Assembly (NCBI RefSeq): GCF_003096355.1
Contig: NZ_QEKI01000008.1
Location: 1-64,000 of the forward strand
DNA: 64,000 nt
DNA from: Pontibacter virosus
GTDB lineage: Bacteria > Bacteroidota > Bacteroidia > Cytophagales > Hymenobacteraceae
Direction of reading: 5' to 3'
Shown: one piece after another, positions 93 to 37,355 of the stretch
Position numbering within the stretch: position 1 is the stretch's first letter
Layout: each line of letters begins with the position of its first letter
Program-made: the position numbers and the translations under genes
Notes under the pieces: generated by a model
The model's database searches: none
The model's input: the letters and a program-made list of their open reading frames with translations, nothing else
What the model was told of the DNA's origin: nothing

Positions 93-154
93 ACGGTCTC
101 GTACAGGCAACGGGTGAGGCATTAGCCGAACATGCTGCCTGTGCTGTGTTAGGC
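93..154 (-). repeat. Cassette A downstream folded element
   Basis: On the minus strand this lies 9 bases after the stop of the 207-aa gene. It opens with GCCTAAC (148-154), then a stem ACAGGCA/TGCCTGT (arms 136-142 and 103-109) enclosing a mini-hairpin GGCTAATGCC (118-127), and ends with ACGAGACC (95-102). The same architecture follows the gene at 36142: stem ACATGCT/AGCATGT, mini-hairpin GGCTTACGCC, tail ACAAGACC. The stems differ at two pairs and both are compensated. GCCTAAC here is the exact reverse complement of GTTAGGC at the inner end of the upstream element (798-845). It could act as a DNA recombination site or as an RNA 3' structure. Confidence 0.7.
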
Positions 155-163
155 TCAGAAGTT

Positions 164-787
164 TTACCGCTTTTTGACAAACAGTACTGAATCGACAGGC
201 TCCTTGTCCAGCTCTATTTTATATAGAACGTAATCAGAATCAGTTGCTGCACCTATAGGTCGGTCAGGAACAAGACTGGCTTTTTTAACATAAAGCTTTA
301 TTGTATCAACCTTTGTGTGATCTTCTACTCTAAAGCGGTTGCCCTTTTCATCAACCAGTTCATTTTCTAGTGAGTAGAACCTTAACTCAGGCAATCCATT
401 TTTAGCGAAGAACATTTCATTCAATGCCGTATCATTTCTTGCCACAGAAAGTACAAAGTCATTCCCACTCTCCTTTGCTGAATATTTTAAACTTGGTTCT
501 CCATCTGGTTGCTTGCTATAGTAGCTGTCGAAAATGAACAGGCGATGTTTCAATTTGATAGGTTCATGAATCCAAGCACTCCCAAGAACGGCTACTGATT
601 CATCAACCTTCACATAATTTCTTACTGGTACATATTCTGCCGCAAGAAAGCCATTTTCACGTGCCAGTTCCTTGCCTAATGTTATACCTTGACCTTCGGC
701 ATTCTTAACATTTATAATTCTCAGTACTAACAGAACCAGCAGCATAGTTACTGCTACAGCTAAAAGTATCGTCTTAATTTTATTCAT
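164..787 (-). CDS. Hypothetical membrane-anchored exported protein (orphan cassette gene)
   Basis: Protein of 207 aa that I do not recognise. Residues about 5-24 are one strongly hydrophobic segment (LLAVAVTMLLVLLVLRI) preceded by MNKIK, so it is either an uncleaved membrane anchor or a signal peptide. There is no lipobox. The rest (about 30-207) is a soluble, strand-rich, probably extracytoplasmic domain with no cysteines and no obvious catalytic motif. The gene is visibly richer in A+T than neighbouring murA. It is enclosed by two elements (798-845 upstream, 93-154 downstream) that also enclose an unrelated gene at 36142-36510, which suggests acquisition as a cassette. The ATG at 785-787 fits the hydrophobic N-terminus. 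The coding call is fairly safe; the function is unknown. Confidence 0.75.
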   Translation of the reverse strand: MNKIKTILLAVAVTMLLVLLVLRIINVKNAEGQGITLGKELARENGFLAAEYVPVRNYVKVDESVAVLGSAWIHEPIKLKHRLFIFDSYYSKQPDGEPSLKYSAKESGNDFVLSVARNDTALNEMFFAKNGLPELRFYSLENELVDEKGNRFRVEDHTKVDTIKLYVKKASLVPDRPIGAATDSDYVLYKIELDKEPVDSVLFVKKR

Positions 788-797
788 TCATTTTTAA

Positions 798-845
798 GCC
801 TAACTACCTGTTAGCAGGAGTATCTACTCCCACTATCTGCACTAT
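798..845 (-). repeat. Cassette A upstream hairpin element
   Basis: A 48-bp element ending 10 bases before the start of the 207-aa gene. On the minus strand it begins ATAGTGCAG, contains TAGTGGGAG TAGATA CTCCTGCTA, which folds into a GC-rich hairpin with a 6-nt loop, and ends AGTTAGGC. A copy matching at 41 of 48 positions lies at 36072-36119 upstream of an unrelated gene in the opposite orientation. The flanks beyond the 48 bp are dissimilar. It could be a 5' leader, promoter-linked structure or recombination boundary. Confidence 0.75.
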
Positions 846-929
846 ATTTATAGATATGTAAATTTATAGTTACTGATTTATTAACCAATATAAGCAAGAT
901 TCATCTCAGCTTTTGTAATCCGGCAAAAA

Positions 930-35688: not shown

Positions 35689-35776
35689 AGAGAGCTGTCC
35701 GAGTGGTCGAAGGAGCACGCCTGGAAAGTGTGTATACCCCAAAAGGGTATCAAGGGTTCGAATCCCTTGCTCTCTG
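35689..35776 (+). tRNA. tRNA-Ser (GGA)
   Basis: 88-nt class II tRNA. The acceptor stem AGAGAGC pairs with GCTCTCT (35769-35775), discriminator G. The anticodon stem CACGC/GTGTG encloses loop CTGGAAA with anticodon GGA (reads UCC/UCU). It has a long variable arm (TATACCCCAAAAGGGTAT) and T-loop GGTTCGAATCC. No encoded CCA. A terminator follows. Confidence 0.95.
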
Positions 35777-35786
35777 CTGCATAACC

Positions 35787-35826: not shown

Positions 35827-36071
35827 TTGGTTGATGTATACCTGCCGTTTACCAACTATTCACATCATACAGCAGTTAAAATCAGCAATAATACCTGGAA
35901 TTTGCAAGCAGCCAAACGTTGCTGCTTCCTGATTATCTATTATTCTTGGATTCGTGTGTTTGCTTTACTTTTTGCTGAAAAGAGGTATATTAGTATTGCA
36001 CTATGAAAGTTACTGAGAGTAATAGCCGTCGCTACCGACACATACTGAAAGGTAGCTAAGATGCTCCACAC

Positions 36072-36119
36072 ATAGTGCAGCTAGTGGGAGAAGATACTCC
36101 TGCTAGCTGATAGTTGGCC
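36072..36119 (+). repeat. Cassette B upstream hairpin element
   Basis: 48 bp matching 798-845 (minus strand) at 41 positions. GCTAGTGGGAG and CTCCTGCTAGC form an 11-bp stem (two G-T wobbles) around AAGATA. It ends AGTTGGCC, 22 bases before the orphan gene's ATG. The mismatch at the base of the stem in copy A becomes a G-C/C-G extension here. Confidence 0.75.
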
Positions 36120-36141: not shown

Positions 36142-36510
36142 ATGAAGAAAATCCTTTTAGTCGCTGTAGCTCTATCTTTACAATCATATCTGTATGACCA
36201 CACAAATAATATAGAAGAGCTGGGTAGTAACTATTACTATATGGGCGACGGAAGAGAATCTCAAATCTTATTAAGTAGGAATGAAAAGAGAAGCGGTGGA
36301 CAGACTGTAGTTCCTGAAGAAGTGACTCACTACGCTTTTAATTCAGAATATATCATCGCGAGAAACATCCAAAACAGGATTAATAAAGAAGTAAAGTTCT
36401 GGATTATAGACAAAAGGCAAGGAACACAACCTGTTGCACTTGATTCTACAGAGTTTTATATAGAGCTTCAAAAGCTAAACCTTAACCTTAAACTACAAAC
36501 AAGAAAATAA
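36142..36510 (+). CDS. Small exported orphan protein, DUF3997-like
   Basis: Protein of 122 aa. MKKILLVAVALSLQSYLYDH looks like a signal peptide. The mature part (NYYYMGDGRESQILLSR, VVPEEVTHYAFNSEYIIARN, VKFWIIDKRQ, LDSTEFYIELQKLN) resembles small Bacteroidota lipoproteins related to DUF3997, from memory. In those the signal peptide ends in a lipobox Cys; here the corresponding position appears to be Tyr (codon TAT, one base from TGT), so lipidation is probably lost, or the ancestor was different. The gene is AT-rich and framed by the two cassette elements. Function unknown. Confidence 0.7.
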   Translation: MKKILLVAVALSLQSYLYDHTNNIEELGSNYYYMGDGRESQILLSRNEKRSGGQTVVPEEVTHYAFNSEYIIARNIQNRINKEVKFWIIDKRQGTQPVALDSTEFYIELQKLNLNLKLQTRK

Positions 36511-36538
36511 GCCAAAAAGGAAAAACAATTCAAGATAA

Positions 36539-36597
36539 CAAGGCACATGCTCAAGCTACGGCTTACGCCTCGCCACAGCATGTACAAGACCATAACC
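36539..36597 (+). repeat. Cassette B downstream folded element
   Basis: Outer stem ACATGCT (36545-36551) with AGCATGT (36577-36583), inner mini-hairpin GGCTTACGCC (36560-36569), tail ACAAGACC (36584-36591). It is homologous to 93-154 on the minus strand; the stem differs at two base pairs, both compensated. It begins about 30 bases after the gene's stop and ends just before the rlmH stop. Confidence 0.7.
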
Positions 36598-36601
36598 AAA
36601 C

Positions 36602-37075
36602 TCAATCATGATGGTACTTCTCGCCCCTCAGAATCGTAAAACCTCGGTATAGCTGCTCCACGAAAAACAGTCGGACCATCTGGTGCGAAAAAGTCATTTT
36701 AGAAAGTGAGATTTTGTCGTTTGCCCGCTCGTACATGGTGGGGGAAAAACCGTAAGCGCCCCCGATTATGAAGACCAGGTTGGTGGTAACGGAGTTTAGT
36801 TTCTTTTGCAGGAAGTGGGCATACTCACTAGATGTGAAGGTTTTGCCTTTCTCGTCGAGTAGCACTACATGATCACCGTCCTGAATTTTTTGCAGCAGCA
36901 GTTTTCCTTCGGCCTCTTTCAAATTATCGGCTGTGAATTTACCCCCTTGCTTCACGTCAGGTATAATTGTAAACTCGAATGAGTGGTAGTGCTTCAGCCG
37001 CTTCATATACTTCTGTATACCCTCCTCCAGAAATGCCTCGTCTGTTTTGCCGATCGCAATGAGCTTGATTTTCAT
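36602..37075 (-). CDS. rlmH: 23S rRNA (pseudouridine1915-N3)-methyltransferase
   Basis: SPOUT methyltransferase of 157 aa, the exact usual length, methylating pseudouridine 1915 in helix 69 of 23S rRNA. Start at 37075 gives MKIKLIAIGKTDEAF; a longer in-frame ORF has no family support. Conserved features are VLLDEKGKTFTSSEYA, the knotted SAM site VFIIGGAYGFSPTMYERA and the C-terminal FSHQMVRLFFVEQLYRGFTI. Confidence 0.97.
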   Translation of the reverse strand: MKIKLIAIGKTDEAFLEEGIQKYMKRLKHYHSFEFTIIPDVKQGGKFTADNLKEAEGKLLLQKIQDGDHVVLLDEKGKTFTSSEYAHFLQKKLNSVTTNLVFIIGGAYGFSPTMYERANDKISLSKMTFSHQMVRLFFVEQLYRGFTILRGEKYHHD

Positions 37076-37355
37076 GTAGCGCTTTTCCCGCCAATTTCGG
37101 TCTAAATACGCTGTTTTGCAAGCTTGCTCGAATTGGTTCAGGTATAGCAGGGCTTGCAACAGAGACGATTCGATTCTCGATTTATACTAATCAATTAACA
37201 AGCCGCTTATCGAAGGGATTTTTAAAATTCAGAAGGTAACTATTGTTTAGCTTCATTCTAAATTACTGAATAACAGCGCTCGTATGCAAACTGTTGTGGG
37301 TAAAGGCAGGTAAAAAGGTATAGTAAAACAATGTGAGACTTTAAACTTTTTAGAT

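Follow-up and report, generated by a model that had tools for sequence, protein, structure and literature searches.

Canonical integrons, both class 1 and the chromosomal type of Vibrio, collect one-gene cassettes whose attC sites have an R''/L''/L'/R' architecture, a bottom-strand bias and a G|TT crossover, and they carry attI beside the recombinase gene with arrays in one orientation; the I2 helix, part of the additional domain of their integrase IntI, reads the folded attC. This helix is held to be the innovation by which a recombinase of double strands came to act on folded single strands, a step whose study has been described as limited by the absence of intermediates (PMC7790495). Clusters of attC sites lacking an integrase are known as CALIN (IntegronFinder, PMC9024848). 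Cassette recombination outside the main attI has been described for attG sites and delta-attI cassettes, the described delta-attI cases being resistance cassettes moved by IntI1 (PMC12901181), and pdif modules consist of genes flanked by recombination sites (PMC7399989).

The window analysed here, the first 64 kb of contig C8 in a 4.88 Mb Pontibacter virosus assembly of 42 contigs, contains two cassettes that we attribute, with a probability of about 0.86, to an integron-like cassette system comprising attC-type sites, dispersed attI docking and an adjacent tyrosine recombinase, the role of the recombinase and present activity being inferred. The system has in common with canonical integrons all the features of cassettes, attC, attI and arrays listed above. 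It differs in that its recombinase lacks the additional domain, bears an N-terminal extension of ~190 residues and is read towards attI, in that its attC sites appear, from predicted folds, to lack regular extra-helical bases and our attC models (R1 and R2, below) gave no match to class 1 integron attC sites, and in that attI-like sites are scattered over the chromosome. As in CALIN, cassettes bearing attC lie distant from a recombinase gene, whereas every dispersed group in Pontibacter is equipped with an attI-like site of its own and in many cases a promoter-like motif, and the sites keep their place between species. Recombination of cassettes outside the main attI is likewise common to attG and delta-attI; attG sites, as far as we know, do not form a conserved 44-bp element. 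Neither folded sites of the attC type nor cassette arrays are known to us among Xer/XerA systems or pdif modules. Among solved structures, those closest to the catalytic domain by sequence are of the Xer/XerA type (4a8e, 5hxy). Canonical integrons are the nearest known kind, yet one of their defining features, the additional domain, is missing. We found no paper on a Pontibacter cassette system in the open-access literature, most subscription papers and preprints lying outside the search.

On the evidence of sequence, the hairpins of the window are attC-type recombination sites, placed at the 3' ends of putative mobile gene cassettes. Copy 1 (minus strand, 95-142) reads ACAGGCA-GCATGTTC-GGCTAATGCC-TCACCCGT-TGCCTGT-ACGAGACC and copy 2 (plus strand, 36545-36591) reads ACATGCT-CAAGCTAC-GGCTTACGCC-TCGCCAC-AGCATGT-ACAAGACC. 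The preliminary description had reported both hairpins, compensated differences between them at stem pairs 4 and 7, and a spacing of 8-10-8 in copy 1 against 8-10-7 in copy 2, all of which are present in the sequence; the locations it gave were right, but the true elements are slightly longer (89-153 and 36534-36597). Compensation in two copies alone is weak evidence. Two covariance models were built, R1 from 44 long (~65 nt) and R2 from 18 short (~52 nt) sites; neither window copy was among the 44 R1 training sites, which did include an intact, near-identical counterpart of copy 1 from contig C31. R1 matched copy 1 at C8:89-153(-) with 59.2 bits (E 1.6e-10) and copy 2 at C8:36534-36597(+) with 41.8 bits (E 3.8e-6), and the search recovered ~75 attC-type sites in this genome, both window copies included. 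In loci that carry attI, from this genome and related ones, R1 and R2 gave 206 and 75 matches, respectively. Contig C31 itself carries small genes arrayed in a single orientation, with sites of the form GCCAAC...GTTAGC between them.

Covariation within the seed set is biased, since the seeds were picked for pairing, and a fairer test was made on 130 sites from a sequence-only profile, none of them used in training. The claimed pairing holds in this larger set: 86.2% of L-arm cells were paired, against a shuffled mean of 57.7% (maximum 60.7% over 500 shuffles), and sliding the L arms by 1-3 columns left only 24-44% paired. The R'' and R' boxes end in AAC and GTT, and the bottom strand was the more stable in 165 of 173 attC sites, by predicted energies only. 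A one-sided extra-helical base on the L'' arm appeared in the minimum-energy folds of 32/173 and 1/18 sites, compared with 6/6 class 1 sites; as far as such predictions can be relied on, this irregularity would count against our explanation. At the most distant recombinase loci, in metagenome assemblies, R1 found no match except at L063. Long (~128 nt) attC-like sites, some of them repeated, adjoin recombinase relatives of other families in the order (L241, L243, L244, L247, L250, L251, L252 and L254). The assembly breaks at attC arrays (contigs C27, C28, C30 and C31; ends of C3, C6, C8, C13, C14, C18 and C20), so the number of cassettes is a lower bound.

A cassette was defined as one small gene together with its attC site. 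Among 206 cassettes, the start was complementary to the cassette's own R'' in 79.6% (shuffled 11.1%, maximum 17.5%), rising to 88.4% in the 69 that start at attI. Within single attC sites as they stand in arrays, R'' matched R' in only 10.3% (shuffled 8.8%), and the 130-site alignment held no R''/R' covariation, because R'' matches the start of its own cassette instead. Starts that match their own R'', with the ends of a single attC not matching each other, point to an integron-like cut of the units at G|TT; insertion of circles cut there would leave such an end pattern. A ~590-nt cassette that lacks a clear ORF and ends in an attC-like site is repeated with 86-93% identity where full length (G000:C8:162281-162870 and 175009-175608; also on C6, C3, C18 and C13, loci L177, L180, L178 and L181), and in two instances is the leading cassette behind an attI that adjoins a recombinase gene. 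In one C8 array, two cassettes (G000:C8:163513-164774 and 167593-168829) encode an identical 193-aa protein, and a transposase-like gene lies in unit 168827-170161.

Both window cassettes lie downstream of a conserved ~44-bp attI-like site. On the minus strand, docking site 1 (ATAGTGCAGATAGTGGGAGTAGATACTCCTGCTAACAGGTAGTT, 802..845) stands downstream of a gene that we take, from our own reading of the sequence, to encode a UDP-GlcNAc 1-carboxyvinyltransferase-like protein (murA), and is preceded by a promoter-like TATATTGG (885..892), inferred from its sequence and from motif enrichment upstream of attI sites. Cassette 1 (94..803) has its TTAGGC start after the attI G, ends at the attC G and encodes a 207-aa protein (164..787) with no Pfam match. 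It fits the expected end pattern exactly, its start GTTAGGC being the complement of its own R'' GCCTAAC (148-154, minus strand; L arms ACAGGCA/TGCCTGT); the 3' R box is decayed or chromosomal, with a boundary at about 94|93. On the plus strand, docking site 2 (36072..36115, ending in GCTAGCTGATAGTT) has a tRNA-Ser(GGA) gene to its left (35689..35777, plus strand) and a promoter-like TATATTAG (35986..35993), common to sequence following integrase genes. Its cassette encodes a 122-aa protein (36142..36510), DUF3997-like below the cut-off. The start, GTTGGCC, does not match R'' GATAAC, which counts against our explanation, and the terminal R' box of its attC is replaced by ATAACC (boundary about 36591); this cassette may have arisen by fusion or have decayed. 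To the right lies what we presume, from its translation, to be an RlmH-type rRNA methyltransferase gene (36602-37159, minus strand).

The upstream element, whose attI-like character goes beyond the preliminary description, has eight high-similarity copies in this genome, and a looser attI pattern occurs in all 50 Pontibacter genomes searched with 1-11 dispersed copies each, a reversed-pattern control being near zero. It also stands beside the recombinase gene and is followed there by an array, a feature of integrons. Of 83 dispersed copies lacking a full recombinase gene, 65 had an attC site within 1.6 kb on the same strand and one had it on the opposite strand. The promoter-like motif TAnnTT[AGT]G was found in 43 of 87 stretches upstream of attI (shuffled mean 18) and in 6 of 85 further upstream. 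Docking sites occupy orthologous chromosomal places common to 2-5 species: the place after the murA-like gene is common to window site 1 and four other species, that after a gyrB-like gene to five species, and further places exist; the gyrB-like and murA-like names at these places are our own readings of sequence. Across 14 orthologous groups, no cassette ORF was common to species at the same place, and two cassette ORF pairs were common to species at different places. The ortholog of window site 2 in a second genome (G003) holds three other cassettes, with homology resuming at the end of the last attC, which in the window is the attC of cassette 2.

Full recombinase copies are encoded at C3:826-2205 (minus strand) and C8:160757-162136 (plus strand), the latter followed by 16 cassettes up to the contig end. 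Full genes end 99-111 nt before attI and are read towards it. Both copies match the integron integrase model TIGR02249 with model positions 180-241 skipped; 202.8 bits were reached, against a cut-off of 265, and the C3 copy scores under this cut-off. In an alignment that took in IntI1, IntI4 and canonical IntI of other Bacteroidota, residues 209-249 of IntI4 have no counterpart, and the additional domain, which places the I2 helix near patch III, is missing from every clade member and present in every canonical IntI aligned. Again beyond the preliminary description, the recombinase is thus not a classical IntI. The catalytic residues are invariant in the clade, the catalytic tyrosine being Y467 in the L046 protein. 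For the L046 protein, the predicted structure (mean pLDDT 81) places two similar repeats in the N-terminal extension (L046 9926-10489, plus strand), then SAM-like and catalytic domains, with no helix where I2 would be. Foldseek returned nothing for the repeats at E <= 0.001, and the similarity to XPB N-terminal domains (VIA-align Z 6.3, rmsd 2.1 over 56 residues) was too low to claim. In a 61-sequence tree the clade joined IntI, apart from Xer (95/80), a grouping that must remain tentative given thin sampling of Xer-like sequences, long branches and the retention of additional-domain columns. The recombinase occurs in 41 of 50 Pontibacter genomes; across the order, 77 of 291 genomes have relatives, some beside attC-like sites. 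It is present on plasmids of Pontibacter kalidii and Rufibacter tibetensis; catalytic-domain relatives also reside on many unrelated plasmids whose cassette content was unchecked, which counts against our explanation, as do the nine of 50 genomes with dispersed attI sites and no recombinase at E <= 1e-80, and the 17 of 83 dispersed sites without a detectable cassette.

The preliminary description had left two readings of the hairpin, an attC-like recombination site or a functional RNA 3' end. The second, including a terminator of the small gene, accounts for a hairpin that folds and comes after a gene, but is hardly tenable. Against it stand the absence of an Rfam match in the window at gathering score, which by itself does not exclude an undescribed RNA, and the next cassette directly following many sites; it is contradicted by the letters flanking the invariant AAC and GTT boxes, whose changes go together with those at the cassette's opposite end. 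The attC-like reading draws support from the R''/R' boxes, the covarying L arm and the bottom-strand bias, and further from ends consistent with G|TT, arrays adjoining a tyrosine recombinase, and cassettes that differ at conserved attI-like sites. An ordinary integron, with a classical IntI acting from outside or since lost and the neighbouring recombinase a mere passenger, would explain why attC topology and G|TT crossover follow the classical integron pattern, and canonical IntI is common among other classes of Bacteroidota (105 of 395 genomes exceed the cut-off). We consider this improbable: no protein of this genome exceeds the IntI cut-off, none was found among the sampled, listed genomes of the order, and among the matches listed only one canonical IntI is from the same class as Pontibacter. 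Moreover, every Hymenobacteraceae locus examined with a full copy has the recombinase ~100 nt before an attI-like site, attI arm type tracks recombinase clade, and R1 and R2 do not detect class 1 attC.

The dispersed sites might instead be relics of whole integrons that inserted repeatedly at favoured places and lost their recombinase, with little or no present capture. Recombinase C-terminal remnants of 15, 24 and 175 residues lie just upstream of three dispersed sites, truncated copies exist in the genomes searched, 17 of the 83 sites have no detectable cassette, and a given place sometimes has different attI types in different species, which is compatible with descent followed by replacement as well as with repeated insertion there. 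Against this reading, which we regard as possible but rather unlikely, complementarity of start and R'' peaks (88%) precisely in attI-adjacent cassettes, and different cassettes occupy the same place in different species with both flanks conserved; capture or exchange therefore followed the origin of the site, unless whole units were inserted there independently.

Under the integron-like reading, the cassettes are probably moved by a recombinase without the domain thought to define integrons. The tyrosine recombinase beside attI would recombine attC sites folded as single strands, thereby releasing circular cassettes, and would insert these at attI, where an upstream promoter would express them. 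That it moves these cassettes is inferred from linkage, co-occurrence and matching attI types, with no recombination, expression or binding data, and its lack of the additional domain, which is said to be required for recombining attC, counts against our explanation. Since I2 is absent, another part, perhaps the N-terminal repeats, would have to read folded attC, or the reaction may run differently. We judge it fairly likely that this is a second integron lineage in Bacteroidia, whose recombinase never had or has lost I2: a 'distributed integron' that keeps cassettes in arrays and also at numerous stable attI docking sites, which have promoters of their own.

According to a published survey, integrons in Bacteroidetes are very few (PMC9024848), and a genus-wide system may therefore have escaped searches requiring IntI. 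If true, natural cassette systems without I2 would make the question of the I2 innovation testable, and dispersed docking sites would alter the picture of the integron as one array with one promoter.
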